Below the pieces are notes generated by a model that was not told the DNA's origin, made no database searches, and worked only from the letters and a program-made list of their open reading frames with translations. Position numbers and translations under genes: made by a program. 64,000 nt of DNA, taken from NCBI GenBank assembly GCA_902778665.1, contig CACYYN010000001.1, positions 82,601 through 146,600 of the forward strand. Reading direction: 5' to 3'. This document shows, in pieces, positions 47,565-64,000 of this stretch (within the stretch, counting starts at the first letter, position 1; each line of letters begins with the position of its first letter). Origin of the DNA: Oscillospiraceae bacterium. GTDB taxonomy: Bacteria > Bacillota > Clostridia > Oscillospirales > Oscillospiraceae.

Positions 47565-47567
47565 CTT

Positions 47568-48182: not shown

Positions 48183-48204
48183 GAAAGGCGGGAAGGAAGA
48201 GAAT

Positions 48205-49545
48205 ATGCGGATAAGCAGATGCGCCATATATGAGATTCTTCTCTTCCACCTGTTCCTGGTATTCTATGCGCTTTCTTTTCCGTTCAAGGATGATTGGGGA
48301 GCAACGGCTCTTCTGCTTCTTCTTGTCTGCATTCTTCTTTTTCTGGAATATCAGCGGACGAGACTTTTCGTGTCGCCTCTGTTTTTCTGGTTTGCCTTCT
48401 GGTTGGGAGCAATTGTGCTGGGAAGAATGTATCTGACGGATGCATATCCGATTTACCAGGAGTGGGGCATGCCGCTTTTACGTCTTGTTACGATAAATAC
48501 CGGCGTGTTTTTCTGGATGTATATTCTGGGAGAACGATGCCGGGGAGATGTTGTCTGCCTGCCGGAGGACAATACAGGTTCAGGGTTCAGAAGCACTCTT
48601 CTGGCAGATCTTGTGATTATAATGCTTTCGCTGGCAACGGCGGCTTTCGTGGTAAATGTGCTGCATGCAGGCGTAATACCCCAGCTTTCCGGAGACGCGA
48701 ATGCCTATCGGGAACCGTTTATCGCCACCCGGTATTATCAGATTGTGAGTCTGATGCGGTTTTCACTTCTTTTTGTTCCGCCTGTTCTCATGGGTGATGC
48801 ACCTTTCGGGAAAAAGGCATGTGTGCTCTGTCTGGCGGCCTTATATCTGCTGGAAGAGATGCTGAGCGGATGGAGAGGTTTTACACTGCAGGCGGTGATT
48901 CTTCTTGCAACATCCTGGTTCCTGTTTTCGGACGTCAGGAGCGGCGTTGTGAGAAGAAGAAATCTTCTGCTTGGCCTTGCGGCGGCACTGGCGGTTCTGG
49001 CGTTTATTGTGTATATTACCGTTACGCGCGACAGTACTTTTGATTCTTTTGAGAGACGGGTTCGCTATGCGATAGAAAACTTCTATCTCTATGTGGCACC
49101 TAATTTCCTGAATGTACAGACCGCTATGGAGAAGGTGCAGCCGAAAGGATATTTCCTGTATACAACGGAAGTTTTCTGGGGTATGTTCCGAAAGCCGTGG
49201 GAGATCCCCCAGTATATCTATTCAGATATAGAATACAGCATAGGTGCATACAATGTCTGCACCTATCTCCTGGAGCCTTACTGTGATCTCGGAACATTGG
49301 GAACGATCTGCTGGTCGGCACTGATAGCATTCCTTTCCGGGGAGGCATTTGCCGGATGCAGAAAGCATCCCGGCGGATTTTCACTGGTTTTGCTGGGAAT
49401 TATGAATATTACCATATTCTACCTCCACAATAATTTCTTCCTGCGTTCTTCTTCGCTTTTGCTTTGGCTTGCTGCGGGGGGACTGATCGGGCTGCTGATA
49501 TCAAAGAAAAAGGAAACCGATAAACATGGCAGCAAAATCCTATAA
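48205..49545 (+). CDS. Wzy-like O-antigen/capsule polymerase
   Basis: A 446-residue protein with about 11-12 membrane helices and a large outside loop (about 265-350) with several Arg and aromatic residues, the usual plan of Wzy polymerases; sequence identity within this family is low. No catalytic motif can be named. It lies between the initiating transferase and the flippase, and its end overlaps the flippase start by 20 bases. The role is inferred from topology and position. Confidence 0.75.
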   Translation: MRISRCAIYEILLFHLFLVFYALSFPFKDDWGATALLLLLVCILLFLEYQRTRLFVSPLFFWFAFWLGAIVLGRMYLTDAYPIYQEWGMPLLRLVTINTGVFFWMYILGERCRGDVVCLPEDNTGSGFRSTLLADLVIIMLSLATAAFVVNVLHAGVIPQLSGDANAYREPFIATRYYQIVSLMRFSLLFVPPVLMGDAPFGKKACVLCLAALYLLEEMLSGWRGFTLQAVILLATSWFLFSDVRSGVVRRRNLLLGLAAALAVLAFIVYITVTRDSTFDSFERRVRYAIENFYLYVAPNFLNVQTAMEKVQPKGYFLYTTEVFWGMFRKPWEIPQYIYSDIEYSIGAYNVCTYLLEPYCDLGTLGTICWSALIAFLSGEAFAGCRKHPGGFSLVLLGIMNITIFYLHNNFFLRSSSLLLWLAAGGLIGLLISKKKETDKHGSKIL

Positions 49546-50974
49546 GAAAAATATTATCTACAATTCGGTTTACCGCTGTGTTGTCGTGATCATGCCTCTG
49601 ATCACTTCTCCTTACCTGACGCGGGTACTCGGAGCGGAAAAACTCGGAATTTACTCATCGGCTAACGCCTTTGCCACTTATTTTGTTATTTTCACTCTTT
49701 TAGGGGTGAATGATTACGGCAACCGCACCATCGCTCAGGTACGTGACAACAGAGATAAGCTGTCTGACAGCTTCTGGCAGATCTACTACCTGCAGTTTTT
49801 CCTGACATTCCTCTTCCTGGCGGTATATCTTTGCAGCATCTTCCTGCATAAAAAGCATTTTACCATCCAGCTGATTCTGGCAATTTACGTTTTGTCATCT
49901 GTTTTTGAAATAAACTGGTTTGCTTTCGGGCTGGAGGAATTCAAACTGACCAGTATTCGCAGCATTATTACACGGTTGGGGATTGTTGCGTGTATTTTCC
50001 TGTTTGTGAGAAAACCGGAAGACCTCTGGAAGTATACGCTGATTATCACTGTGGGAAATCTGATTTCACTGGTTATTATTCTCCCATTGATTTCCCGGTA
50101 TACTGATTTCCGGAAGCCGGACTTTAAGAAGATCGTTTCTCACGTACGGCCGAACCTGATCCTGTTTCTCCCGATTATTGCCACGAGCGTTTATCAGTAT
50201 CTGAGCAAAATCATGCTGGATTCCTGGTCAACGGAAGCCGAAGTAGGATTTTATCAGAATGCGGAAAATATAATAACCTTGCCGTCCTTTATCACAACGG
50301 CAATAGAAACGGTTCTGATGCCCTATGCCTCCAACCTTGTGGCGAAAGGGGATAATGATGAGGTGCTGTTCCGATCCACACTGAAATACACTTCCGTTAT
50401 GAGCATTGCCATGGCATTCGGAATGTTTGCCATTGCCCGTGATTTTATCCCATGGTATCTCGGCAGCGGGTTCGGGCGGTCCGCCACGCTGGTAATGATG
50501 ATGGCTCCGATTGTGTTCTTCAACAGCTTTTCCACCATTGTGCGCTATCAGTATATCATTCCGCACGAGATGGACAAGGAGAACCTGATTGCCATGTTCA
50601 GCGGAGCAGGCACGGATATTATTCTTAATCTGATTCTGATCCCTTCCTACGGGGCTGCGGGGGCAGCTGCAGCAACGGTTGCTTCCTATTTTGTGACGCT
50701 GCTGATCCAGTCCTTCTACGTGGGAAAACGAATGGAGTTTCTTTCAGCAGTAAAATCCTTTCTGCCGAGTGTCCTGTTCGGGGCTGTTATGACAGGTTGC
50801 GTCATGCTGGTGTCAAAACTACCGATCAATGTGATCCTGAAAGTCGGTCTGGAACTGATCGTCGGAGCTTCGGTGTTCCTGGCATGTACTTTTGTATGGC
50901 TCTCCAGAACGGGAGATCCTGTTTTTTCAAATCTGTTCTCTGATATCAGAAAAAGGATGAACAATAAAAACTGA
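49526..50974 (+). CDS. Wzx-type polysaccharide flippase
   Basis: A 482-residue MOP-superfamily exporter with about 12-14 helices. The start (KKNIIYNSVYRCVVVIMPLI, then TSPYLTRVLG) is typical of Wzx proteins in Firmicutes capsule loci. It moves the lipid-linked repeat unit across the membrane to the polymerase. It is a different gene from the partial SpoVB-like flippase at the left edge. Confidence 0.92.
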   Translation: MAAKSYKKNIIYNSVYRCVVVIMPLITSPYLTRVLGAEKLGIYSSANAFATYFVIFTLLGVNDYGNRTIAQVRDNRDKLSDSFWQIYYLQFFLTFLFLAVYLCSIFLHKKHFTIQLILAIYVLSSVFEINWFAFGLEEFKLTSIRSIITRLGIVACIFLFVRKPEDLWKYTLIITVGNLISLVIILPLISRYTDFRKPDFKKIVSHVRPNLILFLPIIATSVYQYLSKIMLDSWSTEAEVGFYQNAENIITLPSFITTAIETVLMPYASNLVAKGDNDEVLFRSTLKYTSVMSIAMAFGMFAIARDFIPWYLGSGFGRSATLVMMMAPIVFFNSFSTIVRYQYIIPHEMDKENLIAMFSGAGTDIILNLILIPSYGAAGAAAATVASYFVTLLIQSFYVGKRMEFLSAVKSFLPSVLFGAVMTGCVMLVSKLPINVILKVGLELIVGASVFLACTFVWLSRTGDPVFSNLFSDIRKRMNNKN

Positions 50975-50995: not shown

Positions 50996-52333
50996 GTGCA
51001 CAGAAAAAAGGTCGTTATCGTAATAGAGGTAGCAAACAGAGAGCTGGATAATGCCCTGCTCCTGAAGGCAGAGCTGGAAAAGCGCGGCTATGATGTCAGT
51101 ATCATGAGCAAAACGGAACAGCTTCGTATGCAGGAGACGGATATTCTGATAACACCAAACTGCTATATCAAACCAAATTATGATTTCTATCGGTATCGGT
51201 TTAACTGCAAGAGCGGAAAAATTGTGAACCTGCAGTACGAACAGGTCTTGTCACCGATCGAAGAGGACAACGAGCTCTACAGTCTGGACGAAACGACAAA
51301 AAAAATTACGCATCTATGTTGGGGCAGGCACACGGTAGATCGCCTCAGAGGGAAAGGCGTGGAACCATCGCTGCTTCCGGTTACCGGAGCCATTCAGCTG
51401 GATACCACACGCCCTCAATTTGACGAATACTGGAAGAGCAGAGAGGCACTGGCGGAAGAGTTCGCTCTGCCGACAGATAAGAAGTGGATTCTTTATATTT
51501 CGAGTTTTGCCTGCTTCATCGGCAGCAAGATCAACGAAGTACAGAAGGAGACGCATACAAAAGACAATGTGGAGCGCTTTGCGATAGTAACAGACCGTTC
51601 GCAGAAGGCAACGCTCTCCTGGTTTGATCAGTTTCTTGAAAAGAACAAGGATTATATTGTCATCTACAGGCCGCATCCCGTGGAGCTCAGCAGCCCTCAG
51701 GTACGGGAAGTGGTTGAAAAACATCCTCAGAGCTTCCGCTGCATTCAGGATTATGAAGTGAAGCAATGGCTGAAAGTAGCTGATATCCCCTGCACATGGC
51801 TCAGCACCGCAATTTCTGAGAGCTATTTTGTAGGAAAGAATTGCCTGGTGTTTCGGCCCTGTGAAATTCCGGAGGATGTGGACTGTGTTTTGTATCAGGG
51901 GGTACAGGCGGCACGGTCTTATGATGAATTTGAGCATCAGATTCTGAATTATCATTCTTCCACAGCGTATTTCCCAATCAGCCGGGATCTGATTGAGTAT
52001 TATTATGATTTCAGCCAAGTGCCTGCATATCGGAAAATTGCGGATGTTGTGGACGGACAGCTTCCGGAAGCGGAAGATACCCAATCCTATGAGAAGGATC
52101 GGATAGAATATCTTCTCAGGAACCATCTTATTCTGAAACTATCTGTAAAAAAAGCTTATCGCGGCTGGTATCGCCTGACCGGGCGCAAAATTAAAAACAG
52201 AAAATTCCGGGAAAAGTTTTTTGTGGAAGAATGGGAAAAAACCGTGGATAACCGGATCAATAACAGTGAAGGAATCCATCGGAAAGAGCAGAAGTTCAAA
52301 GAAATATTGGAAAGAAAAGAGATTTCAACATGA
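50996..52333 (+). CDS. Surface-glycan biosynthesis protein, GT-B-like
   Basis: A 445-residue soluble protein. The N-terminal half has strands like those of two-domain glycosyltransferases (KKVVIVIEVANRELDNALL, DILITPN) and the C-terminal half carries YIVIYRPHPVEL, where the Arg-Pro-His is common in CDP-glycerol transferases and polysaccharide (KpsC/LipB-like) enzymes. The end is a basic coiled helix that may bind the membrane. It resembles 'surface carbohydrate biosynthesis' proteins from nonulosonate clusters. GTG 50996 is used with GGAGGAA 6 bases upstream. Its stop overlaps legB by four bases. It may be the nonulosonate or kinase-like transferase of this cluster. Confidence 0.6.
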   Translation: MHRKKVVIVIEVANRELDNALLLKAELEKRGYDVSIMSKTEQLRMQETDILITPNCYIKPNYDFYRYRFNCKSGKIVNLQYEQVLSPIEEDNELYSLDETTKKITHLCWGRHTVDRLRGKGVEPSLLPVTGAIQLDTTRPQFDEYWKSREALAEEFALPTDKKWILYISSFACFIGSKINEVQKETHTKDNVERFAIVTDRSQKATLSWFDQFLEKNKDYIVIYRPHPVELSSPQVREVVEKHPQSFRCIQDYEVKQWLKVADIPCTWLSTAISESYFVGKNCLVFRPCEIPEDVDCVLYQGVQAARSYDEFEHQILNYHSSTAYFPISRDLIEYYYDFSQVPAYRKIADVVDGQLPEAEDTQSYEKDRIEYLLRNHLILKLSVKKAYRGWYRLTGRKIKNRKFREKFFVEEWEKTVDNRINNSEGIHRKEQKFKEILERKEIST

Positions 52334-53310
52334 GTAAAATCCTTGTGACCGGTGCAGGCGGATTTATCGGCAGCCATCTGACGGAGCTCCTTGTTCGTGA
52401 AGGGCTTGATGTCAGGGCGTTTGTCCACTATAATTCTCTGGGAAGCTGGGGATGGATCGATTCCTTTCCGGAGGAAGAAAAAAAGAATATTGAAGTCTTT
52501 TCCGGGGATATCCGGGATCCGAACGGCGTCAGGGATGCATTGCGGGGCTGTGATGCGGTTTTCCATCTGGCGGCACTGATTGCGATTCCCTTCAGCTATC
52601 ATTCACCGGATACCTATGTAGACACGAATATCAAGGGCACATTAAATGTCCTTCAGGCGGCAAGAGACCTGGGTACGTCCCGTGTGCTGGTTACGTCCAC
52701 ATCGGAGGTTTACGGCACGGCACAGTATGTGCCGATTGATGAAAAGCATCCCTATCAGGGACAGTCTCCTTATTCTGCTACCAAAATTGGAGCAGACAGG
52801 CTGGCAGAGTCATTCTATCGCAGCTTTGATCTTCCGGTGACGATTGTGCGGCCGTTTAACACCTACGGTCCGCGTCAGTCAGCGAGAGCCGTCATTCCGA
52901 CGATTATTACCCAGCTCCTCGCAGGCAGACAGGAGATCCGGCTCGGTGCACTGTCACCGACGAGAGATTTCAATTTCGTCAGGGATACTGCCAACGGGTT
53001 TTATCAGATATTCCGCTCGGAGAAAACAATCGGGCAGGAGATCAATATAGCGACCCAGAAAGAAATCTCTATAGGAGATTTGGCAAAGGAGCTGATTCGC
53101 CAGATCAATCCGGAAGCGCAGATCGTCTGTGAAGAGCAGCGCCTCCGCCCGGAAAAGAGCGAAGTGAACAGGCTGCTCGGCTGCAATGAGAAAATCATGC
53201 GCCTGACAGACTGGAAACCGCAGGTATCCTTTGAACAGGGACTTGCGGAGACAATCGAGTTCCTGCGCAATAACCTTGACCGATACAGAACTGACATCTA
53301 TAACCTTTGA
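52330..53310 (+). CDS. legB: NAD-dependent 4,6-dehydratase, LegB-like
   Basis: A 326-residue extended SDR. The NAD motif is VTGAGGFIGSH (residues 5-15), the Ser/Thr site is VTSTSEVYGTA, and the active Tyr-Lys is SPYSATKIGAD. It matches LegB, which in legionaminic acid synthesis forms the 4-keto-6-deoxy sugar from GDP- or UDP-GlcNAc. The HYNSLGSWGWID text near residue 37 is typical for LegB and close GDP-mannose dehydratase-like enzymes. It starts the nonulosonate section and overlaps the previous gene. Confidence 0.88.
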   Translation: MSKILVTGAGGFIGSHLTELLVREGLDVRAFVHYNSLGSWGWIDSFPEEEKKNIEVFSGDIRDPNGVRDALRGCDAVFHLAALIAIPFSYHSPDTYVDTNIKGTLNVLQAARDLGTSRVLVTSTSEVYGTAQYVPIDEKHPYQGQSPYSATKIGADRLAESFYRSFDLPVTIVRPFNTYGPRQSARAVIPTIITQLLAGRQEIRLGALSPTRDFNFVRDTANGFYQIFRSEKTIGQEINIATQKEISIGDLAKELIRQINPEAQIVCEEQRLRPEKSEVNRLLGCNEKIMRLTDWKPQVSFEQGLAETIEFLRNNLDRYRTDIYNL

Positions 53311-53325
53311 GAGGAATCATCATTT

Positions 53326-54441
53326 ATGAAGTACTGCAAAAAATGTGTTATGCCGGATACAAGACCGGGAATAACATTTAATGAAGAAGGTATCTGCTCA
53401 GGCTGCCAGTCTTTTGAAAGAAGAAAAGATATAGACTGGGACGCAAGATTTAAAGAGCTGGAGGCTATCTGTGATAAATACCGCGGCATGAATGGGGACG
53501 GGTATGACTGTGCCATTGCGGTTTCCGGCGGGAAGGATTCCCATTATCAGGTTTACCTGATGAAGGAAGTCATGCATATGAATCCCATTCTCTTCAGCGT
53601 GGAAGATAACTTCCCCATGACGGAAGCCGGAAAGCATAATATCCGCAATATTTCGGAAGAATTCGGCTGCAATATTATCAGCATGAAGCCGGACATTCGG
53701 GCACAGAAAAAGCTGATGCGCTATATGTTTGAACAGTACGGCAAGCCGACCTGGTATGTGGACAGACTGATCTACACCTATCCCCTCTATATGGCAGCAA
53801 AATTCAATACCCCGCTGCTGGTTTACGGTGAAAATGTAAGCTATGAGTACGGCGGAGCGGACCGGAAGGAAACCTACAGCGCAAAAGAGCAGCTCAACAA
53901 CGGCGTCGCATCCGGCGTGGATGAAGAGGAGCTGATCGCCAATGCAGGCGTAACGGCAAAGGATCTGTATCTGACCCGTGCTCCCGAGCAAAGCATTCTT
54001 GACTCGCTCGACCCGATTTATATCTCCTACTTTGTTCCTTGGAACAGTGTGAAGAATGCAGTGTTTGCAAAAACTCGCGGTTTCCATGATCTCACGCACG
54101 AATGGCGCAGGACCCTTTGCATTGAAGACTTTGACCAGGTTGACAGCCGGGCTTATCTGGTGCATCCTTGGCTGAAATATCCCAAATTCGGGCATACAAG
54201 CGCAACGGACTATGCCTCGCGCTTTGTACGCTACGGGCTTATTGACCGGGAAACTGCCGTTCAGCTTGTAAAAGAACATGACAGCAAGCTGGATCCGCTC
54301 TGTGTCCGGGATTTCTGTGAATTCTGCGGTTATTCGGAATCTGAGTTCTGGGCGATTGTGGATAAATTCTACAACAAAGATCTTTTTGAGAAAAATGAAC
54401 TGGGAGAATGGGTGCTGAAGCACCCCGTCTGGGAAACTTAA
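53326..54441 (+). CDS. N-acetyl sugar amidotransferase (WbpG/PseA/LegA-type)
   Basis: A 371-residue PP-loop enzyme. It begins with two CxxC-type pairs (YCKKCVMPD and GICSGCQSF) and carries the ATP-pyrophosphatase motif AVSGGKDSHYQ. CEFCGYSESEF lies near the end. The family turns a sugar acetamido group into an acetamidino group, using ammonia from a partner glutaminase such as HisH/HisF-like proteins. No such partner is in the window. The presence suggests an acetamidino-nonulosonate or precursor. Confidence 0.88.
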   Translation: MKYCKKCVMPDTRPGITFNEEGICSGCQSFERRKDIDWDARFKELEAICDKYRGMNGDGYDCAIAVSGGKDSHYQVYLMKEVMHMNPILFSVEDNFPMTEAGKHNIRNISEEFGCNIISMKPDIRAQKKLMRYMFEQYGKPTWYVDRLIYTYPLYMAAKFNTPLLVYGENVSYEYGGADRKETYSAKEQLNNGVASGVDEEELIANAGVTAKDLYLTRAPEQSILDSLDPIYISYFVPWNSVKNAVFAKTRGFHDLTHEWRRTLCIEDFDQVDSRAYLVHPWLKYPKFGHTSATDYASRFVRYGLIDRETAVQLVKEHDSKLDPLCVRDFCEFCGYSESEFWAIVDKFYNKDLFEKNELGEWVLKHPVWET

Positions 54442-54474
54442 GAGCCTTTTTATCATCAGTGCAGGGGAAGCGGT

Positions 54475-55512
54475 ATGGATTATTCAAATCTGATCATTGA
54501 TCTTCAGACAAGTATATGCGATGCGATGCGCATCATTGACAGAAGCGACCTGAAAATACTCTTTGTTGCGGATGGAAGGAAGCTGGTCGGGTCTCTAACC
54601 GATGGAGATATTCGTCGCTTTCTTTTTAACGGCGGCACGCTCCAGGACAATGCGGAAAAGGCTGCAAACCACAATCCGAGAGTAGCCAAAAGCCTGAAAC
54701 ATGCATCTGAACTTTATAACAGATTATACTACATAGCGATTCCCGTGATTGATCAGGATGGGAACATAACAGGAATCTATGTGGGAGAGGAGCTCCAGCA
54801 GAAAAAGCAGAGTCCGCTCCACGTGCCGGTTGTGATCAACGCCGGAGGGAAAGGGACAAGGCTTGATCCTTATACGAGAGTTCTCCCCAAACCCCTGATC
54901 CCGGTGGGTGAGCTTCCCATTATCGAACATATCATGCAGCAGTTTCAGAAGATGGGCTGCGATGATTTCAGCGTGATTGTCAATTATAAAAAAGAACTGA
55001 TTAAAACCTATTTCCGGGAAAGTGAGAATCAGTACCGGGTTACCTGGTATGATGAGATCTCTCCCCTGGGCACAGGTGGAGGCCTGAGCCTTCTGAAGGG
55101 GAAAATCAACAGCACGTTTTTCTTCACCAGCTGTGACACGCTTCTTCTTTCGGATTATGAGACCATGCTGCGTTTCCATAAAGAAAACAGGAATATGGTT
55201 ACGATGATTTGTGCATGGAAGAACCTCACCATTCCCTACGGAATCGTGGAAATGGGCAAAAACGGCATTATCGAGCAGATGCGGGAGAAACCGGAGCTTT
55301 CCTTCCTGACCAACACCAGCATCTATATAGTGGAGCCGGAGGTCATAGAGAAGATTCCCGACAACACTTCAATTACCTTCCCGGAAGTGATTCAGGCACT
55401 GATGGACAGAGGAGAGAAGGCGGCTGTTTTCCCGGTCAATGAAAGTGAATGGTTGGATATGGGACAGCTATCCGAACTGGAAAAAATGAGAGAGAGGCTA
55501 TACGGAAAATGA
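54475..55512 (+). CDS. CBS-domain sugar-1-phosphate nucleotidyltransferase, PtmE-like
   Basis: A 345-residue fusion. Residues 1-115 form a CBS pair (LKILFVADGRKLVGSLTDGD and YYIAIPVIDQDG). From residue 118 comes a nucleotidyltransferase of the RfbA/GlmU type with INAGGKGTRLDPYTRVLPKP, then TGGGLSL and FFTSCDTLLL. The same domain order is known in Campylobacter PtmE, which makes GDP-glucosamine for the legionaminic acid route, so GDP rather than UDP sugars may be used. It overlaps the CMP-transferase start by four bases. Confidence 0.85.
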   Translation: MDYSNLIIDLQTSICDAMRIIDRSDLKILFVADGRKLVGSLTDGDIRRFLFNGGTLQDNAEKAANHNPRVAKSLKHASELYNRLYYIAIPVIDQDGNITGIYVGEELQQKKQSPLHVPVVINAGGKGTRLDPYTRVLPKPLIPVGELPIIEHIMQQFQKMGCDDFSVIVNYKKELIKTYFRESENQYRVTWYDEISPLGTGGGLSLLKGKINSTFFFTSCDTLLLSDYETMLRFHKENRNMVTMICAWKNLTIPYGIVEMGKNGIIEQMREKPELSFLTNTSIYIVEPEVIEKIPDNTSITFPEVIQALMDRGEKAAVFPVNESEWLDMGQLSELEKMRERLYGK

Positions 55513-56210
55513 AAAATATTGCAATCATTCCAGCCCGAAGCGGTTCCAAGGGACTGCCGGATAAGAATATCAGGCTCCTTGGCGGAAAGCCTCTGCTGGC
55601 CTATACCATCGAGGCGGCAATTCAGTCGGGCTGTTTTGATACCGTCCATGTGTCCACAGATTCTGAGCATTATGCTGAGATTGCCCGGCAGTACGGGGCA
55701 GATGTGCCGTTTTTGCGGAGTGCCGCACTGGCAACAGACACAGCCTCGACATGGGATGCGGTCCGTGAGGCGCTTTGCCGTTATGCTGAGCTGGGAAAGA
55801 CGTTTGACACCATGATGCTGATGCAGCCCACCACACCGCTCAGAACCGGAGAGGATGTAAAGAGAGCATACGCTCTGCTGAAAGAAAAGCAGGCAAAATC
55901 GATTATCGCCGTGTGTGAGGTGGATCATTCTCCGCTCTGGTGTGACACCATCCCCGATAGCGGCAGCATGAAAGGTTTCGGCCATAAGGAGCTCGCCTGG
56001 GTGAACCGGCAGGATCTGCGGCCCTATTACCGGGTGAACGGAGCAATGTATCTGCTCAGTGTAAACGGCGTTGACATTCCGCCGGATGATGATATTTATG
56101 AGGATAACTGCTACGCATTCTTTATGGATCGAAAGAAGAGTGTTGATATAGACAGCGAGGACGACCTCGCTATGGCGGAATTCCTTCTTTCAAGGAGAAA
56201 AAATGGCTAA
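55509..56210 (+). CDS. CMP-nonulosonate cytidylyltransferase (NeuA/LegF-like)
   Basis: A 233-residue enzyme: IIPARSGSKGLPDKNIRLLGG is cut here to its core IPARSGSKGLPDKNIR (residues 6-21), which binds CTP. LMQPTTPLRTGEDV and the acidic metal motif DSEDDL follow. It activates a sialic-acid-like sugar with CMP. It is the NeuA catalytic domain only, with no extra C-terminal domain. ATG 55509 overlaps the previous stop, and the next gene begins eight bases before its end. Confidence 0.92.
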   Translation: MKNIAIIPARSGSKGLPDKNIRLLGGKPLLAYTIEAAIQSGCFDTVHVSTDSEHYAEIARQYGADVPFLRSAALATDTASTWDAVREALCRYAELGKTFDTMMLMQPTTPLRTGEDVKRAYALLKEKQAKSIIAVCEVDHSPLWCDTIPDSGSMKGFGHKELAWVNRQDLRPYYRVNGAMYLLSVNGVDIPPDDDIYEDNCYAFFMDRKKSVDIDSEDDLAMAEFLLSRRKNG

Positions 56211-57213
56211 AAAGATTACAATTATCGCAGAAGCAGGTGTAAACTATAACGGAGATATCCGGATTGCCAAGGAAATGGTAAAGGCCGCTGCGGCTTCCGG
56301 AGCAGACTATGTCAAGTTCCAGACCGGGGTACCTAAATTCGATGTCTCGGTTTTTGCAGAGAAAGCGGAGTATCAGAAGCATAATACGGATGATGATGCC
56401 GGCTCGGAAAGCCAGCTGGAGATGTGCTCCAAGCTGATGCTCCCCTTTGAGGTATATCCGGAGCTGATCGAATGCTGCAGGGAGAACAATATTGCGTTTC
56501 TTTCCTCACCCTTTGATCCTCCCTGTGCCAGATTTCTCCACGAGATGGGCATGCATATCTGGAAAATCCCATCCGGAGAAATTACCCATTTCCCGATGCT
56601 GAAAGTAATCGCTTCCTACGGGGAACCGATTATTATGTCAACCGGAATGGCCACACTGGAAGAGATCGAGACAACGCTTGCCTATCTCCGGCAAAACGGA
56701 GCAGGGGAGATCACGCTTCTTCACTGCAACTCTGAATATCCCACACCGTATCCGGATGCCAATATCCGGGCTATGTTTGACCTGAAAATGCATTTCGGGC
56801 TTGAAGTCGGTTATTCGGATCACACGCTCGGCATTGAGGTCCCGATTGCAGCGGCAGCCCTCGGAGCGACGGTAATTGAAAAGCACTTTACCCTTGACCG
56901 GACTATGGAAGGGCCGGACCAGATTTCAAGTATTGAGCCGGATGAGCTGAAGCAGCTGGTGGATTCGATCCGGCATGTGGAGGCAGCTCTCGGATCCGGC
57001 ATGAAAGTTCCTACGGAGTCAGAACGTAAGAATATCAATGTAGTGCGTAAAAGCATTGTGGCTGCGCGGGCAATCCGAAAGGGCGAGGTTTATACGGAAG
57101 AAAATCTTGCCTGCAAACGCCCGGGCGGAGGCATCTCCCCGATGGAGTGGGACAATGTCCTCGGCCTCACTGCCGTGCGGGATTTTGCACCGGATGAGAT
57201 GATTGAACTGTAA
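56203..57213 (+). CDS. N-acetylneuraminate/legionaminate synthase (NeuB/LegI-like)
   Basis: A 336-residue synthase. The TIM-barrel part has IIAEAGVNYNGD, ADYVKFQTG, FLSSPFD, KIPSGEI and LLHCNSEYPTP, and EVGYSDHT with the metal His. A C-terminal antifreeze-like SAF domain (SIVAARAIRKGEVYTEENL, then KRPGGGISP) is kept. It joins phosphoenolpyruvate with an N-acyl amino sugar to make the nine-carbon acid. NeuB and LegI are hard to tell apart by eye; the neighbours favour LegI. Confidence 0.93.
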   Translation: MAKKITIIAEAGVNYNGDIRIAKEMVKAAAASGADYVKFQTGVPKFDVSVFAEKAEYQKHNTDDDAGSESQLEMCSKLMLPFEVYPELIECCRENNIAFLSSPFDPPCARFLHEMGMHIWKIPSGEITHFPMLKVIASYGEPIIMSTGMATLEEIETTLAYLRQNGAGEITLLHCNSEYPTPYPDANIRAMFDLKMHFGLEVGYSDHTLGIEVPIAAAALGATVIEKHFTLDRTMEGPDQISSIEPDELKQLVDSIRHVEAALGSGMKVPTESERKNINVVRKSIVAARAIRKGEVYTEENLACKRPGGGISPMEWDNVLGLTAVRDFAPDEMIEL

Positions 57214-57225
57214 AGGAGCATCAGT

Positions 57226-58512
57226 ATGGTTAATCCGAACGGGGAATACTTTGGAAAGAGGCTTCTGTTTGTCGGAGCTTCAGGTCATTTTGAACCTGCC
57301 ATCAAAAAAGCCCAGGAAATGGGTGCTTATGCAATTGTGATCAACAACAATCCCAATGCGAAGGGAAAACAGTTTGCTGACCTGGCTGCTGATGTGGACA
57401 CCTATGTGGTGGACGACATTGTCAATTTTGCAAAAGAGCAGAAGGTTGACGGGCTTTTTACATCCTGGAATGATATGAATCTTTTTCACACCCAGGAAGC
57501 TGCAGAACGGCTGAATCTGCCTTTTTTTGCAACCCGGGAACAGCTGGATGCCCTTGTGTTTAAATATGATTTCAAGGTAACCTGCAGAAAATACGGCGTT
57601 CCGGTAACACCTGAATACTATGTCGGCGGCAATCTGACCGAGCAGGATGTTGCCGCTTTCCGGTATCCGGTTATCTTCAAGCCGATTGACAGCGGCGGCA
57701 CCCGCGGAATGACAGTGCTGCATTCTCCGGAGGGCGTCTGGGAGGCCTATGAAAAAGCGCTTGCTCCCTCTGCGGCTAAAAAAGTGGTGGTGGAGAAGTA
57801 TCTCCGCAACGGCCATCTGGTTGTTTTCGATCTGGCCATACAGAATGATCAGGTTTATCTCGCCTGTGCGATGGACCGCTGTATTGTGCGCACCTCGGAA
57901 AGTGCCGTTCCTCTGGCGATTTCCTATATGTATCCGTCTAAGTATATTGATGTGATTGAAGAGCAGGTTATGCAGCCCATCACAGACATGATTCACGGGC
58001 TGGGTATTCACAACGGGATCATTTCATTTGACGGAATGATCAGCGAGGGTCAGCTGTACCTGATCGAGACGCAGTTCCGCTGGGGCGGCACGCATTTCTA
58101 CAAGTTTGTGGAGCAGGAAAGCGGAGTAGATCTGCTTGCGATGATGATCGACTACGCCCTTACAGGGACATATGACCGCTACTCCTTCGAGGGAAAACTG
58201 AATGCCCGCTTTAAACGGCATTATGCCTGCCAGAACCTGCAGGCATTTCCCGGAAGAATTAAAGATGTACAGAATGTGGATAAGGTGCTCGCAATTCCGG
58301 GTGTCGACTGGCTGATTCAGATTAAGAATCTTGGCGACATCATCCCGGATGACGGTTCCACGGCGGAAAACTTTGCGAAGATCGGGCTTTCCGCAGATAC
58401 GGAGAAAGAGATCTATCATCTGATGGATCAGGTTCAGAAGACTTTGGTCGTGCTGGATGAAAACGGCAGAAATCTGATCAAAAACAATGTGCCGGCTGAA
58501 CTTCTCGGATAA
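57226..58512 (+). CDS. ATP-grasp ligase in the nonulosonate cluster (paralog 1)
   Basis: A 428-residue protein with the carbamoyl-phosphate-synthase/PurK-like ATP-grasp plan. It has a Rossmann-type start (RLLFVGASGHFEPAIKKA), a YPVIFKPIDSGGTRGM ATP-lysine strand with glycine-rich loop, VVEKYL, and an acidic metal strand (LYLIETQFRWGGTH). ATP-grasp enzymes join a carboxylate to an amine or thiol through an acyl phosphate. About 5 kb on lies a paralog of almost the same length. It starts 12 bases after the synthase. Substrates are unknown; N-acylation of an amino sugar is a reasonable guess. Confidence 0.82.
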   Translation: MVNPNGEYFGKRLLFVGASGHFEPAIKKAQEMGAYAIVINNNPNAKGKQFADLAADVDTYVVDDIVNFAKEQKVDGLFTSWNDMNLFHTQEAAERLNLPFFATREQLDALVFKYDFKVTCRKYGVPVTPEYYVGGNLTEQDVAAFRYPVIFKPIDSGGTRGMTVLHSPEGVWEAYEKALAPSAAKKVVVEKYLRNGHLVVFDLAIQNDQVYLACAMDRCIVRTSESAVPLAISYMYPSKYIDVIEEQVMQPITDMIHGLGIHNGIISFDGMISEGQLYLIETQFRWGGTHFYKFVEQESGVDLLAMMIDYALTGTYDRYSFEGKLNARFKRHYACQNLQAFPGRIKDVQNVDKVLAIPGVDWLIQIKNLGDIIPDDGSTAENFAKIGLSADTEKEIYHLMDQVQKTLVVLDENGRNLIKNNVPAELLG

Positions 58513-58516
58513 GAAC

Positions 58517-59311
58517 ATGATGTGTGACTATCATCTTCACTCGGAGTTTTCTTTTGACTCTTCAGAGAAAATTGAAGCGATCTGTGAAAAAGCGGTTCAG
58601 TCGGGAATACGCGAGATTGCCATTACCGATCATGCAGAGTTTCCCGTGCGAGACAGTGCACCCTGGCCGGACTTCAGGAGACGTGCAGAGGTGTTGGATT
58701 TCTGCCGTACCCGTTTCGGAGAGAATCTTATCATTCGTTCGGGAGTAGAAGCCGGTCAGCCCTGGCACTGCGATTGCCCGGGCAAGGAATGGTCCGGGGA
58801 GAATCTGGATTTTGTCCTTGCCTCTGTCCATGAGCTGGATGGATACCCGGATCCGAGAACCTATGCCTATACACCGGAGAATACCTCCAATTTTATCCAT
58901 ACCTATCTGATGCAGATGACCGCTATGGCGGAAAAATGCGATTATGATGTGCTGGGGCATGTCACCTATCTTTTCCGTTTTATTCCCGAGGAGATTGTGC
59001 GGGCTATTCCGCCGGAGTCATTCATGGAGGAGTATGAGGCTCTCTTTCGCACGGTCCTGTCCAGAGGGAAGGGAATTGAGGTCAATTGCAGCGGGTTGCG
59101 GATGCCTTCCATCGGGAAGACGCTCCCGTCCCTTGAGCTGCTGCGGCTTTACCGGGAGCTGGGCGGAGAGATTGTTACCGTCGGTTCAGACGGGCATTCC
59201 TGCCGCAGCGCGTTTACCGGGCTTGAAACGGGCTATCAGGTGCTGCGGGATGCAGGCTTTTCCTACGCTACTTCCTTCGAGAAACGGATTCCCGCTTTTT
59301 ATAAAATATAA
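58517..59311 (+). CDS. PHP-domain phosphatase/hydrolase
   Basis: A 264-residue PHP protein like histidinol-phosphatase HisK. Metal ligands: MCDYHLHSEFS (HxH near residue 5), ITDHAEFP, ASVHELDG, LGHVTYLFRF and GSDGHSCR. It may be a phosphatase of a phosphorylated sugar or acid. There are no his genes, so a histidine role is unlikely. The start is ATG 58517 or 58520, 5 or 8 bases after the ATP-grasp stop; no strong ribosome site is seen, so it may depend on coupling. Confidence 0.85.
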   Translation: MMCDYHLHSEFSFDSSEKIEAICEKAVQSGIREIAITDHAEFPVRDSAPWPDFRRRAEVLDFCRTRFGENLIIRSGVEAGQPWHCDCPGKEWSGENLDFVLASVHELDGYPDPRTYAYTPENTSNFIHTYLMQMTAMAEKCDYDVLGHVTYLFRFIPEEIVRAIPPESFMEEYEALFRTVLSRGKGIEVNCSGLRMPSIGKTLPSLELLRLYRELGGEIVTVGSDGHSCRSAFTGLETGYQVLRDAGFSYATSFEKRIPAFYKI

Positions 59312-59326
59312 CCCAGGAGCTGACTG

Positions 59327-60487
59327 ATGAAAAAGCTTGCTGTTCTCACCGGAACCAGGGCTGATTTTGGCCTGCTTGCACCGATTATAAAAAAACTCCG
59401 CACCTTTCCGGATCTGGATGTACGCCTTGCAGTGACGGGAGCACATCTTTCGCCGGAATTCGGCCTGACGGTTTCGGAAATTGAGGCGGAAGGAATTCCG
59501 GTGGATCGAAAAATAGAAATTCTTCTTTCCTCCGATACACCTTCGGCAATTTCAAAATCTATGGGCCTTGCAATGATCGGGTTTGGCGATTATTTCCAGG
59601 ATTCGGCCCCGGACGCCCTGCTGGTTCTCGGTGACCGGTATGAGACGCTGGCGGCAGCCTGTGCTGCTGTGAATGCACGCATCCCGATTTTTCACCTTTA
59701 CGGCGGAGAAACGACGGAAGGGGCGGTGGATGAAGGGTTTCGCCATGCGCTTACCAAGCTGTCCTGCATTCATTTTGTGGCCAATGGAGAATTTGAGAAG
59801 CGTGTGATTCAACTCGGAGAAGCTCCGGAGCGGGTTTTTCGCGTCGGGGCTATGGGGCCGGAGAATGCCATTCATATGCCCAAGCTTTCTCTTTGTGAGC
59901 TGGAAGAGAGCCTTGGGGTTAAACTGGGGGAAAAATACGCCGTTCTGACGTTTCACCCGGTTACGCTGGAAAACCATACCGCGCATGCTCAGGCCGATGA
60001 ACTTGTGAAAGCTCTTGAATGGTTTCCGGAAATCACCTTTCTCTGTACCAAGGCAAATGCGGATGCTGACGGAAGGATCATCAATGAGGTTCTGGAGGCA
60101 TTTGCATGTAAGCGCAATAATGTATTTCTGGTGGATTCTCTGGGAGCAAAACGCTATCTGAGCGCATTGAATTATGCCCTCTTTGCCATCGGCAATTCTT
60201 CCAGCGGGCTGGCAGAAGTGCCCAGCTTCCATATCCCGACGGTCAACATCGGAGACCGCCAGAAGGGGAGAATGCAGGGAGAGAGCATTATCAACTGTGC
60301 TCCCGAGGCTGACAGCATCGCAGCGGCGATTGAAAAAGCATTATCTCCCGCATTCCGGGAGACAGCCGCAAAAGCTGAAAATCCCTATGGTGACGGGCAT
60401 GCATCTTCCAAAATCGCGGAGATTGTGCATGATCACCTGATCCATAACAAAATGATCTTGAAAAAGAAGTTCTACGATCTGGAGTAA
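59327..60487 (+). CDS. Hydrolysing UDP-GlcNAc-type 2-epimerase (NeuC/LegG-like)
   Basis: A 386-residue GT-B-fold epimerase. Motifs: LTGTRADFGLLAP, LVLGDRYETLAAA, HLYGGETTEGAVDEGFRHA and IGNSSSGLAEVP. It releases UDP or GDP and inverts C2 to give the free amino sugar used by the NeuB/LegI synthase. The presence of LegB suggests the diacetamido-trideoxy sugar (LegG) rather than ManNAc. It lies 15 bases after the PHP gene. Confidence 0.92.
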   Translation: MKKLAVLTGTRADFGLLAPIIKKLRTFPDLDVRLAVTGAHLSPEFGLTVSEIEAEGIPVDRKIEILLSSDTPSAISKSMGLAMIGFGDYFQDSAPDALLVLGDRYETLAAACAAVNARIPIFHLYGGETTEGAVDEGFRHALTKLSCIHFVANGEFEKRVIQLGEAPERVFRVGAMGPENAIHMPKLSLCELEESLGVKLGEKYAVLTFHPVTLENHTAHAQADELVKALEWFPEITFLCTKANADADGRIINEVLEAFACKRNNVFLVDSLGAKRYLSALNYALFAIGNSSSGLAEVPSFHIPTVNIGDRQKGRMQGESIINCAPEADSIAAAIEKALSPAFRETAAKAENPYGDGHASSKIAEIVHDHLIHNKMILKKKFYDLE

Positions 60488-60497
60488 CGGAAGGTCC

Positions 60498-61667
60498 ATG
60501 AAGATTCTTGTAGCGACAGGCTCTTTTAAAGATGTGTTCAGCCCGCTGGAGGCGGCGGATGTAATCTGCTCCGCTTTGGACAGAGAGAAAAATGAGGTGA
60601 CTTCGGTCCCTTTCTGTGACGGAGGGGAATATACCTATGAGGTGCTCAGGCACTGCTTCGGCTATGAAGAGCATCCGGTAGAGCAGGTCGTCAATCCCTA
60701 CGGCAGGGCATGTGCCTGCAGCTATCTGGTTCAGGGCGACGAGGCCCATATCGTCTCCTCGAGCATTCTCAGGCTTTATCCGGAGGAGGATGTGTATAAA
60801 AATCCTCTGAACCTGACAGATTACGGCTATGGGCAGCTGATAGCGGATGCACTGAAACGCGGCTGCCGGAAGCTTACGCTGTACTTCGGAGGAACCTCAA
60901 CCGTCTCCTGCGGAATGGGAGCCCTCCAGGCTCTGGGTGCCCGCCTTTTTGATGCGGAAGGGAACCTGATGTCGGAGCCATGTTCGGGAGCAGATCTCAA
61001 CCGCATCGCACACATCGAATCTCCGGAGACGGATTATTCCGGCATCGATGTGCACATCGTGGCAGACGGGAATTCTAAGGTGGACGCGCTGCCCGGAATC
61101 ACCGGTCTGAAAGTCGGCAGGCACTGGTCAGAGGAGAGGGAGCAGATCGTCTCTTCCTCCATGGAAGGAATCCGCAATGTCCTGAAGTTGACCGGAATCT
61201 CACCGCAGAAGGACTTTACCGGCGCGGCCGGCGGCCTTCTTTTTGGCTTGGAGCAGATCTTCCCCCATATCCGTTACACGCTGGGCGGGCTCTATTTTAA
61301 TAAAGTGCTCGGTGTGGAGAAGAAAATCTCGGACTGTGACCTCGTGATTACAGGGGAAGGCAGATATGACAACACCGCTGACGGGAAGGCCCCGTCTGTT
61401 ATAGCCATGCTGGCAAAAAAGCATGCGAAAAAGGCGATTCTGGTCTGCGGCCAGATTGATAAAAAGGCAGTCGGAAGCTACAGGGGCGGGATTATCCATT
61501 GTGAAGATGAACCTCAGTTCTTCCGGCAGGGAATTGAACAGGTGCTGACCTGCCAGGAATATTTTGATTCTGTTTCTTTGCCTGATTCTTATGAAGCGTG
61601 CATCCGGCTTTTCCGGGAGCAGACGCCTCAATTGATCCGGGAGTTATTCAGAAAAGCCGGACTCTGA
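60498..61667 (+). CDS. Glycerate kinase (GlxK/GarK family)
   Basis: A 389-residue glycerate kinase of the GlxK type: starts KILVATGSFKDVFSPLEAA, then VPFCDGGEYTYE, where the family has PxADGGEGT; FGGTSTVSCGMGALQALG; TGAAGGLLFGLE and VITGEGRYDNTADGKAP. Several catalytic-loop residues are kept, but the first motif is changed (DGGEYT for DGGEGT) and the start shifts from KDSL to KDVF. It may phosphorylate glycerate or a similar acid. Position inside a nonulosonate operon is odd for central metabolism. It is 10 bases after the epimerase gene. Confidence 0.83.
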   Translation: MKILVATGSFKDVFSPLEAADVICSALDREKNEVTSVPFCDGGEYTYEVLRHCFGYEEHPVEQVVNPYGRACACSYLVQGDEAHIVSSSILRLYPEEDVYKNPLNLTDYGYGQLIADALKRGCRKLTLYFGGTSTVSCGMGALQALGARLFDAEGNLMSEPCSGADLNRIAHIESPETDYSGIDVHIVADGNSKVDALPGITGLKVGRHWSEEREQIVSSSMEGIRNVLKLTGISPQKDFTGAAGGLLFGLEQIFPHIRYTLGGLYFNKVLGVEKKISDCDLVITGEGRYDNTADGKAPSVIAMLAKKHAKKAILVCGQIDKKAVGSYRGGIIHCEDEPQFFRQGIEQVLTCQEYFDSVSLPDSYEACIRLFREQTPQLIRELFRKAGL

Positions 61668-61687
61668 ACCGGCAGAAAGGTCGTGCA

Positions 61688-62467
61688 ATGAACGAGTTTG
61701 CAATCCGTATTCTGTCTGCTTCGCAGGGAAAGACGCATCTCTTCTCCGCCGGGCAGGCAGGATTTATTCTGAAAAGCAAGTCGGGGCAGACCCTTGCATG
61801 GGATCTGTATCTCTCCGAGTGCGGAGAACGGCTGGAGGGCAATGACGGTTTTAAACGCCTGCTTCCGAAGCTTCTGTACCCGGAGGAAGTATGTTTTGAT
61901 GTGGTTGTGGCATCTCATTTTCACTTTGATCATTTTGATCCGGACGCAATGCCGGCTCTTGTCTCCAACGGGCATACAAAACTTCTTGCTGCTACTGACT
62001 GCGCAGATCTTGTCAGGCAACTGAGAATGGAGAGCTGCGATGTCTCTTTTGTGAAGCCCGGAGATCTGGTCAGAGCGGGAGATTTCTCCATCCGGTTTGT
62101 CAACTGCGACCACGGAACTCTTGCGCCGGAAGCTGTCGGTGCGGTGATCACAGTGGACGGGAAGAGAATCTTTTTCGCAGGGGATACCTGCCTGAGACTT
62201 GACAGAGCGGGAGAGATCCTTTCGGAAGGCAAGATTGATGTGATGATTGCGGCGATCAACGGGGCATACGGCAACCTGAATGAGCATGACTGTGCCATCC
62301 TCAGCAAGGAGATCAAGCCGGGTCTCACAATTCCCTGCCATTATGGGATGTTTGCCTCCCACGGAGGAAATCCCGGGCTTTTCCGCCGGTATATGCAGGA
62401 GGAATGCCCGGAGAATCGCTATCTCATGATGCGGATGGGTGAGGAAACTATTTTGTCGGAGGAATAA
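61688..62467 (+). CDS. Metallo-beta-lactamase-fold hydrolase (UlaG-like)
   Basis: A 259-residue MBL protein. The metal site is ASHFHFDHFDPDAM (HxHxDH), with VNCDHGT, FFAGDTC and IPCHYGMF giving the other ligands. UlaG, its better-known relative, opens a lactone of ascorbate phosphate. Here a lactone, ester or phosphodiester of the cluster's sugar is possible. ATG 61688 has AAAGG 7 bases before it. It ends 3 bases before the second ATP-grasp gene. Confidence 0.85.
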   Translation: MNEFAIRILSASQGKTHLFSAGQAGFILKSKSGQTLAWDLYLSECGERLEGNDGFKRLLPKLLYPEEVCFDVVVASHFHFDHFDPDAMPALVSNGHTKLLAATDCADLVRQLRMESCDVSFVKPGDLVRAGDFSIRFVNCDHGTLAPEAVGAVITVDGKRIFFAGDTCLRLDRAGEILSEGKIDVMIAAINGAYGNLNEHDCAILSKEIKPGLTIPCHYGMFASHGGNPGLFRRYMQEECPENRYLMMRMGEETILSEE

Positions 62468-62470
62468 GAA

Positions 62471-63742
62471 ATGAAACCTTATGAAAATAAGAAGCTTCTC
62501 TTTCTGGGGGGAAACACAGAAACCGTCCCTCTGGTGAAGATTGCAAATGAACTGGGTGCAACAACAATTGTCTCCAGTTCCAATCCGGAATCAATGGCGA
62601 AAGCATGCGCTGCAATAAAGTATGATACCGATGCGACCGATGTCGCGGCTATGGTCGCGCTTGCCAAAGCTGAAAATGTATCCGGGGTTCTGCCCGGAAC
62701 CGACGATATTTTCATCCCGGCCTACTGCAAGGTTTGTGATGTTCTCGGGTTGCCCTGCTACGCCAATGAAGAAATCATCGAGGTTTTCGGATATAAAGAT
62801 ATGTTTAAAGCCACCTGCGAGCGCTACGGCATTCACGGTGTGCCGGAGTATTATCTGGATGCATCAATGAATCCCCGGGATCTCGCCAGAATTCAGTATC
62901 CTGTGATGGTGAAGCCGGTTGACTGCTATTCCGGAATCGGTATGACAGCCTGCTATTCGGAAGATGAGCTTCGCCCGGCGGTGGAAAAAGCGATTGCCGC
63001 CTCTAAATCGGGACGTTTCATCGTGGAAAAGCTGATGAAATGCGACGATGTAGGCCTTTACTATACGTTTAAAGACGGTGTATGCAGCCTGTCCTGCATT
63101 TTTGACCGTTATACCGGAGACGGACGTGTTGCACTGGGCAATATCTATCCCTCCAGGCATATCGACCACTACTATGAACGCATGCATGCCAATGCTTTGC
63201 GCCTGTTTAAGGCAATGGGGATTAAAAACGGCGTCCTCCTGGTGCAGGCATTTTATGAGAATGAGGAATTCTATGTCTATGACACGGGATTCCGGCTTCA
63301 GGGTGAGGCATCCAATCTTCTCATTGAGAAGCTCTGCGGATATGACCAGCGTGAATTGCTGATTCATTTTGCCCTCACCGGTTCGGAAGGAGACCTTGAT
63401 CTCTGCGCAGCCGATGATCCGACACTTCACGGCCGGGCGGCGGCATCCGTCTGGTTCCTGCTGAAGGAGGGGACTGTCGGCAAAATTGAAGGGCTGGAAC
63501 GGGCAAAGAATGACGGCCGTGTTGCTGCCCTTGTGCAGAGGCTTTATGAAGGGGATGAAATCCCGTCTTCCTGGATCGGTACGGAGCAGCAGGTAATGCT
63601 GAGGCTGTTCCTCGTCTGCGATACGAAGAAGGAACTGGCTGAAGCAATAGCAGAATACCAGACCGGAATCCGTGTGTCTGATATCCATGGCGGCAATATG
63701 CTGGTAGACGGGTTTGATGCCGCCGCAGCACTGGAGGTGTAA
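62471..63742 (+). CDS. ATP-grasp ligase in the nonulosonate cluster (paralog 2)
   Basis: A 423-residue ATP-grasp protein with the same plan as paralog 1: Rossmann start (KLLFLGGNTETVPLVKIA), VLPGTDDIF, YPVMVKPVDCYSGIGMTA as ATP-lysine and loop, and FIVEKLM. The metal strand ends VYDTGFRLQGEAS, where paralog 1 has IETQFRWGGTH: an Asp replaces Glu and an Arg is kept. The two proteins probably arose by duplication and act on different donors or acceptors. It is coupled closely to the MBL gene. Confidence 0.82.
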   Translation: MKPYENKKLLFLGGNTETVPLVKIANELGATTIVSSSNPESMAKACAAIKYDTDATDVAAMVALAKAENVSGVLPGTDDIFIPAYCKVCDVLGLPCYANEEIIEVFGYKDMFKATCERYGIHGVPEYYLDASMNPRDLARIQYPVMVKPVDCYSGIGMTACYSEDELRPAVEKAIAASKSGRFIVEKLMKCDDVGLYYTFKDGVCSLSCIFDRYTGDGRVALGNIYPSRHIDHYYERMHANALRLFKAMGIKNGVLLVQAFYENEEFYVYDTGFRLQGEASNLLIEKLCGYDQRELLIHFALTGSEGDLDLCAADDPTLHGRAAASVWFLLKEGTVGKIEGLERAKNDGRVAALVQRLYEGDEIPSSWIGTEQQVMLRLFLVCDTKKELAEAIAEYQTGIRVSDIHGGNMLVDGFDAAAALEV

Positions 63743-63746
63743 GGAC

Positions 63747-64000
63747 ATGGCGGATAAAAGACTGGAAGGAAAAGTAATTGTTATTTCCGGCGGTACTTCG
63801 GGCGTCGGAAAAACGGCAGCCGAAGAATTTGCAGCACAGGGTGCCAAAATCGTGATCGGCGGACGGAATGAGGAGGCTGCACTGCGGTCTCTCCGAGTGA
63901 TCCGTACCTACGGGTCTGAGGGAATATTTGTCCATACAGAGCTTGAAAATGTGGAAGACTGCAAAAAGCTTTTTGATGAGGCAGCTGCAGAATACGGCAA
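63747..64000 (+). CDS. SDR-family oxidoreductase, 5' part
   Basis: The first 84 codons of a short-chain dehydrogenase; the gene runs past the window end. The cofactor motif SGGTSGVGKTAAEEFAAQG is at residues 14-32, and IVIGGRNEE follows at the NADP-type position. It starts 4 bases after the second ATP-grasp stop, so the operon continues. The catalytic Tyr-Lys part is outside the window. Confidence 0.85.
   Translation, partial: MADKRLEGKVIVISGGTSGVGKTAAEEFAAQGAKIVIGGRNEEAALRSLRVIRTYGSEGIFVHTELENVEDCKKLFDEAAAEYG

Follow-up and report, generated by a model that had tools for sequence, protein, structure and literature searches.

Gene content of the locus

The stretch of DNA analysed here (the window: 64,000 nucleotides, bases 82601-146600 of contig C1, its right end being the end of the contig) comes from an Oscillospiraceae bacterium and carries, at 52330-64000, a nonulosonate operon in which biosynthetic genes are interleaved with accessory genes, two of them for ATP-grasp proteins. 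The window genome (G000) is a draft of 2.73 Mb, 84.4% complete, and the relatives that give the nearest matches are Oscillospiraceae (Clostridia) assemblies from ruminant gut. An earlier annotation made from the DNA alone (the original prediction) had listed for this region nonulosonate genes of legionaminate type together with two ATP-grasp ligases, a PHP phosphoesterase, a glycerate kinase, a metallo-beta-lactamase-fold (MBL) hydrolase and an SDR oxidoreductase. All of the genes named are open reading frames there, on one strand, and domain and family profiles confirm the inventory, including the position of NeuC between the PHP and kinase genes. The original prediction missed the absence of LegC and LegH and the truncation of the SDR gene by the contig end. 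It also began the operon at 52330, whereas the tight same-strand run starts earlier, at 46962, with gaps of -26 to +33 bases through to the end of the contig.

The operon genes and the surface-polysaccharide genes that precede them are all on the + strand. Four of the nonulosonate proteins exceed curated cut-offs: LegB, the NDP-GlcNAc 4,6-dehydratase (52330-53310; TIGR04180, 512 bits against a cut-off of 475; orthologues 86-90% identical), the WbuX/PseA-type N-acetyl sugar amidotransferase (53326-54441; TIGR03573, 347 against 203; orthologues 85-95%), the NeuB-type nonulosonate synthase (56203-57213; TIGR03569, 440 against 400) and the NeuC/LegG-type hydrolysing 2-epimerase (59327-60487; TIGR03568, 445 against 236). 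Two others were named from their domains. The NeuA-type CMP-nonulosonate cytidylyltransferase (55509-56210) passes the cut-off of PF02348, its top NCBIfam model, PseF, remaining below cut-off (177 against 206), and the PtmE-like sugar-1-phosphate nucleotidyltransferase (54475-55512) has CBS and NTP_transferase domains and passed no cut-off among the best 25 of 34 NCBIfam models. Elsewhere in the family, homologues of the latter with 55 and 59% identity adjoin NeuD-NeuB in two genomes (L039, L040). A second copy of WbuX is present in the window genome (C28:27720-28829, L004), with 83% DNA identity, beside a guaA-like gene and away from nonulosonate genes.

The accessory genes begin after neuB with ATP-grasp 1 (57226-58512; orthologues 82-91% identical), which we propose to be an N-acyl ligase in LegH's place, and a PHP phosphoesterase of the HisJ family (58487-59311, with the start at either 58487 or 58517-58520; TIGR01856, 113 against 90). 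Beyond NeuC lie a divergent glycerate-kinase-family protein (60498-61667; PF02595), an MBL hydrolase of UPF0173/UlaG-like type (61688-62467; PF13483, Lactamase_B_3, 46 against 24), ATP-grasp 2 (62471-63742; PF02786 above cut-off; orthologues 77-88%) and an SDR oxidoreductase of which 84 N-terminal residues are present (63747-64000). The two ATP-grasp proteins are 28% identical to each other.

Conservation and distribution of the operon

ATP-grasp 1 was aligned with three of its distant relatives and the alignment used to scan the genome_contigs collection, giving at least 29 loci among the matches listed. Two of these (L042 and L043, with 90 and 91% identity), from Oscillospiraceae of goat and yak duodenum (genomes G929 and G930), are the same operon; their gene order is that of the window as far as each contig reaches, and their operon proteins are 69-95% identical to those of the window, the SDR fragment aside. 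Further operon-bearing genomes may exist beyond the 586 stretches that the listing covers. In the window's own genus an orthologue of the kinase occurs in 3 of 61 genomes, each of which has the operon: G000, G931 (95% complete) and G950, which shares contig number and coordinates with L043 and is presumably the yak genome G930 (72% complete if the two are the same).

The operon of G931 is rearranged, in the order glycosyltransferase, LegB, WbuX, an extra membrane protein, PtmE, NeuA, ATP-grasp 1, NeuC, kinase, MBL, ATP-grasp 2, SDR, GT2 glycosyltransferase and NeuB, and the block from NeuC to GT2 stays contiguous despite this. Linkage of the PHP gene, as originally predicted, holds for the window, goat and yak, where the gene order is the same, but in G931 the PHP gene (48% identity) is separated from the operon by about 12 kb on the same contig. 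That contig also carries a second, pseudaminate-like set with homologues of NeuB, NeuA, an aminotransferase and a dehydratase (L086, G931 C74:1-16000).

Synonymous sites are near saturation between operon copies (pS 0.62-0.88), while the proteins of the other operon genomes remain 62-95% identical to those of the window (47-71% for PHP). The ratio dN/dS is 0.014-0.089 where computable, a rough figure at such saturation. Between the window and G931, ATP-grasp 1 (82.5% identity) is better conserved than NeuA (67%), NeuB (62%) and NeuC (75%), and less well than LegB and WbuX (both ~85%). The SDR copies of L043 and G931 are 87% identical; a full-length SDR orthologue is present in L084, and in both L043 and L084 a GT2 glycosyltransferase gene follows the SDR gene. 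Since the same set recurs in three other genomes, the operon is a conserved functional unit and not a chance assembly: a real, conserved and unusual nonulosonate operon of gut Clostridia. As a separate observation, the SDR frame of the yak assembly (L043:13796-14581) has an in-frame stop near its start, from sequencing error or decay, and the G931 copy is intact.

Relatives of ATP-grasp 1 were found at E 1e-30 in 11 of 200 genomes of the family and at E 1e-55 in 6 of 391 genomes of the class, the window genome being counted in both, and only its own copy exceeds 33% identity in either search. The kinase was matched at E 1e-60 in a single one of 394 genomes of the order, its own, and at E 1e-35 in three of 398 genomes of the phylum, the two others being 34-36% identical and having ordinary motifs. 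Plasmid matches listed for the kinase, ATP-grasp 1 and the MBL protein reach at most 33.1% identity, and ATP-grasp 1 has no relative in the viral contigs. A close orthologue of PHP is present in all four operon genomes, the unlinked case included, whereas a search of five other genomes gave none (a 29% match in G122, one of 23% in G174, and no match at E 1e-5 in G004, G109 and G131). The original prediction that the accessory set is an integral part of the nonulosonate operon is borne out to this extent: among the genomes searched, the kinase and PHP orthologues occur only in those with the neuB/neuC operon, and neither is found mostly away from neuB. Within the limits of sampling, and among the matches listed, the set looks confined to the window's genus and near kin.

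The accessory proteins

The predicted model of ATP-grasp 1 is a confident one (pLDDT 90.8). Its top PDB matches in Foldseek, with TM-scores of 0.73-0.82, are 4dim and 3vot, the latter being the L-amino acid ligase BL00235; biotin carboxylases come next. Sequence identity to these best fold matches is low (17-19% in the structural alignment), with phmmer E-values of 8e-7 for 3vot and 5e-16 for 4dim, and the protein reaches no NCBIfam cut-off. The ATP-grasp fold is present, and K113, K152, E190 and R285 are invariant in 28 aligned sequences; we take these to supply the ATP-binding lysines and acidic residues.

No match to NeuA, NeuB or NeuC at E 1e-8 was obtained at the loci of 27 distant relatives of ATP-grasp 1, several of them on short contigs; in G131 a relative lies 10-15 kb from the nonulosonate genes of that genome. 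A DegT-type sugar aminotransferase lies within ~6 kb in 18 of 26 such loci, a count made without a control set. Here L070 (a 22% match) was dropped, as no frame matched; the aminotransferase profile was made from seven sequences, three of them from the loci of other ATP-grasp relatives; two of the loci (L044 and L045) are on the same contigs as two members of the search alignment; and of the eight loci without an aminotransferase, six are on contigs no longer than 10.5 kb. The aminotransferases of L030, L033 and L034, which lie outside the 26 loci, have DesI as their best model, under its cut-off, and one neighbour in L033 exceeds the cut-off for RmlB. DesI is the dTDP-4-dehydro-6-deoxyglucose aminotransferase, and LegB and LegC also yield a 4-amino-4,6-dideoxy sugar. 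The family thus appears to accompany makers of amino sugars, in keeping with the formation of an amide on the amine of a sugar. The acyl-ligation role that was originally predicted for the ATP-grasp proteins is consistent with the fold and with the neighbours of these distant relatives, but association with neuB is not a feature of the whole family.

A further arrangement was seen in L030, L033 and L034, where distantly related ATP-grasp genes, in pairs, lie on either side of a gene for an uncharacterised protein (~315 residues), near the DesI-like aminotransferase and RmlA/RmlB-like genes. The one copy of this protein that was tested gave no NCBIfam match at E 1e-20. These loci could possibly specify a family of amide-decorated 4-amino sugars.

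The PHP protein passes the subfamily cut-off of TIGR01856 and reaches no equivalog cut-off. All four copies keep the HisJ-type motifs, which we read as metal-ligand motifs. A generic HisJ protein was rejected as the sole reading, since of the nine genomes searched only the four with the operon have a close orthologue. The MBL protein has the HxHxDH motif and matches UPF0173 and UlaG proteins in the PDB, the PRK00685 and UlaG models staying below their cut-offs.

The kinase passes the Pfam Gly_kinase cut-off (181 against 23) and falls just below that of TIGR00045 (161 against 168). It lacks the A(T/S)NDGG motif and its DGGEGT motif is also altered, and these changes are common to all three of the full-length copies from operons that were compared (those of the window, L043 and L084); both motifs are retained in the four other family members compared (3cwc, 1to6, L097 and L098). 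Because the glycerate-kinase motifs are lost or changed, the operon kinase probably acts on a substrate other than plain glycerate. Glycerate, which the original prediction had tentatively put forward as the activated acid, is accordingly doubtful, and glycerate as the acyl group is weakened by the same changes.

The SDR had been counted among the genes without a place in known routes. It may, however, not be foreign to the legionaminate route, because the Plesiomonas legionaminate cluster includes PtmA, itself an SDR. PtmA has also been linked, weakly, to a predicted 3-oxoacyl-ACP reductase. The full-length SDR orthologue matches 210 NCBIfam models, and none of the best 25 bears a PtmA label.

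Absence of LegC and LegH from the operon

The operon has neither a gene for the aminotransferase LegC nor one for the acetyltransferase LegH, and we regard this as the best clue to the role of the ligase. LegC exceeds its cut-off (TIGR04181) in two of the four operon genomes, G000 and the goat genome G929, where it is encoded elsewhere and unlinked to the operon. In the sample of 61 genomes of the genus, LegC was above cut-off in G000 only, and in none of the 58 genomes that lack a kinase orthologue. The neighbours of the unlinked LegC are comparable in the two genomes (L006/L029 on C5 of G000, L088 on C7 of G929); we read them as a solute-binding-like lipoprotein upstream and a MurA-like gene downstream.

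NeuD/LegH (TIGR03570) was above cut-off in none of the three operon genomes searched (G000, G929 and G930). It does exceed the cut-off beside neuB in G131 and G122, two of the three other NeuC-bearing genomes of the family. Only matches that pass the NeuD cut-off were counted, because weaker ones, to hexapeptide acyltransferases, turn up everywhere, in each of the 8 genomes searched and each of the 14 controls.

The operon of G122 (L040, G122 C135:1-16000) offers a close comparison. Its order is WbuX-PtmE-NeuD-NeuB-formyltransferase-PIG-L-NeuC-NeuA, with identities to the window proteins of 73% (WbuX), 55% (PtmE), 55% (NeuB), 50% (NeuC) and 54% (NeuA), and it likewise has extra genes between neuB and neuC. 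This slot holds a formyltransferase and a PIG-L deacetylase in G122, which are acyl-swapping genes, and ATP-grasp 1 and PHP in the window; NeuD is present in G122. The product of the G122 operon is possibly an N-formyl nonulosonate. Since NeuD is not found over its cut-off in the three operon genomes searched and the contents of the neuB-neuC slot are swapped, acylation by the ATP-grasp ligase is the simplest reading for the window operon.

Proposed pathway

Gene content, conservation, co-distribution and the absence of NeuD above cut-off from three genomes are direct observations. From them we infer the individual reactions, the kind of acid and its position of attachment. In the proposed pathway LegB, an aminotransferase encoded elsewhere (LegC where present), NeuC, NeuB, NeuA and the PtmE-like protein would give a CMP-activated nonulosonate of legionaminate type, and WbuX would convert an acetamido to an acetamidino group. 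The acetylation that LegH performs on the 4-amino-4,6-dideoxy intermediate, whose nitrogen ends on C7, would be replaced by the ligation of a carboxylic acid to the amine by ATP-grasp 1. The kinase, MBL hydrolase, ATP-grasp 2, SDR and PHP phosphatase would prepare, phosphate-protect or extend the acyl group, with the phosphate removed last; a small acid that is phosphorylated, ligated and later dephosphorylated would explain the presence of both kinase and PHP. We put the probability that ATP-grasp 1 replaces LegH in this way, with the other accessory genes making or extending the acid, at about one half. More tentative is the extension that the operon specifies a new class of nonulosonate biosynthesis. 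Here ATP-grasp ligation would take the place of acetyl-CoA-dependent LegH; two ATP-grasp enzymes acting in series, with a repurposed glycerate-kinase-type enzyme, the MBL hydrolase and the SDR, would build a two-part, peptide-like acyl chain on the sugar, and the capsules of gut Clostridia would contain a previously undescribed nonulosonate. The broader idea of a decorated nonulosonate, as originally predicted, is plausible and better founded than before; its glycerate detail appears weak.

Several observations weigh against the replacement of LegH. No LegC was found in the yak genome G930 at E 1e-60, and in G931 the best match to the LegC family scores 317 bits against a cut-off of 420. The NeuD search covered three of the four operon genomes, all but G931, and two of the three other NeuC-bearing relatives, all but G138 (33%), and the hexapeptide acyltransferases below the NeuD cut-off could themselves acetylate. 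All four operon genomes are drafts, and the G000 contig stops inside the operon. The ATP-grasp 1 family is mostly without nonulosonate genes, its association with aminotransferases is a count lacking controls, and the substrate of the ligase cannot be read from the sequence.

These points leave room for other accounts. In one, which is close to the original prediction and seems to us unlikely, N7 would receive its acetyl group from an unrelated acetyltransferase and the accessory genes would decorate another position of the sugar: N5 or an oxygen, through a glyceroyl or different hydroxyacyl group, or the carboxylate at C1, through an amide. Such sugars have precedents in two reports, a di-O-methylglyceroyl group on C5 of Campylobacter jejuni pseudaminate (PMC3068675) and an N-methyl-glutamyl group on C5 of Clostridium botulinum flagellin legionaminate (PMC5207245), and the sub-cut-off acyltransferases could supply the acetyl group; the altered glycerate-kinase motifs speak against it, as does the fact that the two other nonulosonate operons tested have NeuD beside neuB and the window operon does not. 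We consider it unlikely that the kinase, MBL, ATP-grasp 2, SDR and GT2 genes have a task of their own, making and attaching another component of the repeat unit that contains the nonulosonate, and have only a transcript in common with the nonulosonate genes. The block that remains intact in G931 while NeuB and PHP are relocated favours this account, as do the distant ATP-grasp relatives in loci without nonulosonate gene matches, but in both gene orders NeuC lies between accessory genes and ATP-grasp 1 adjoins NeuA or NeuB, upstream of NeuC.

The failure of LegC to reach cut-off in G931 and G930, together with the conservation of the SDR, would suit a route without C4 amination, in which reduction of the LegB product, perhaps by the SDR, or some other use of it would give a deoxy-sialic-type acid and the ATP-grasp enzymes would act on another group. 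This is improbable given LegC above cut-off in G000 and G929, its distribution in the genus, and the PtmE-like protein and WbuX, which fit the legionaminate/acetamidino type. The genes all come from large families for which other roles are known, as would be expected if unrelated metabolic genes had been inserted by chance beside a nonulosonate operon; the recurrence of the set in four genomes that have diverged under purifying selection, together with its co-distribution, in effect refutes this explanation and makes it scarcely credible. If ATP-grasp 1 does replace LegH, sialic-acid-like sugar chemistry would extend to ligase-installed acyl groups in the capsules of gut commensals, and the enzymes could serve for the synthesis of such sugars in vitro. 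The operon offers a conserved, compact candidate gene set with a single swap, of LegH for an ATP-grasp ligase, and a possible function for an ATP-grasp family found in capsule-type loci.

Comparison with known systems

The Plesiomonas legionaminate cluster includes LegC, LegH and PtmA (PMC4481668). Compared with the CMP-legionaminic acid route of Campylobacter and Plesiomonas (LegB, LegC, LegH, LegG, LegI, LegF and PtmA/E/F), the window operon shares LegB, NeuC (LegG), NeuB (LegI), NeuA (LegF) and a PtmE-like protein, but lacks LegC and LegH and adds the two ATP-grasp proteins, PHP, the divergent kinase and the MBL hydrolase. It lies beside genes for sugar transfer and a flippase, not beside flagellar genes.

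Amide formation by ATP-grasp enzymes in glycan assembly has parallels elsewhere. In the type B flagellin locus of Clostridium difficile (PMC5207246, PMC5207245), the ATP-grasp protein CDR20291_0245, a predicted carboxylate-amine ligase, is encoded in the glycan locus together with the FdtB-like 0247, and the glycan carries amino acids amide-linked to an amino sugar; that sugar is Fuc3N, not a nonulosonate, and the likeness is one of description. The C. jejuni capsule amidoligase Cj1438C likewise forms amides by ATP-grasp chemistry during capsule building, although this TupA-like enzyme acts on the carboxylate of glucuronate and, by its description, belongs to another subfamily (PMC11800379). 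A HAD phosphatase of that pathway is the subject of a further paper cited there. Acyl variants of nonulosonates, glyceroyl and N-methyl-glutamyl among them, are already known chemically; in 2010 the genes behind unusual pseudaminate structures were described as uncharacterised (PMC3068675). In the open-licence PMC literature, as far as its texts were accessible, no such operon is described for ATP-grasp enzymes with nonulosonic or legionaminic acid, and nothing in that literature joins glycerate kinase with ATP-grasp and NeuB, or with legionaminic acid.

Surface-polysaccharide genes upstream and other features

The part of the same-strand run that precedes LegB consists of genes of surface-polysaccharide type. 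The group at 46962-50974 begins with a Wzz-like membrane protein, named by its position and without a Pfam match, and includes a sugar-1-phosphate transferase (PF02397), a polymerase-like membrane protein, also named by position and without a Pfam match, and a Wzx-type flippase (PF01943). It is followed at 50996-52333 by a glycosyltransferase-like surface carbohydrate biosynthesis protein (TIGR04396 above cut-off; orthologues 68-84% identical). L042 and L085 have comparable surface-polysaccharide genes on the upstream side of their operons, and the region is best explained as a conserved biosynthetic unit within a Wzx/Wzy-type surface-polysaccharide locus.

Elsewhere in the window, at 36341-38509, the translation as read by eye contains two near-identical tandem domains at its C-terminal end, which we take to be TlpA/thioredoxin-like.

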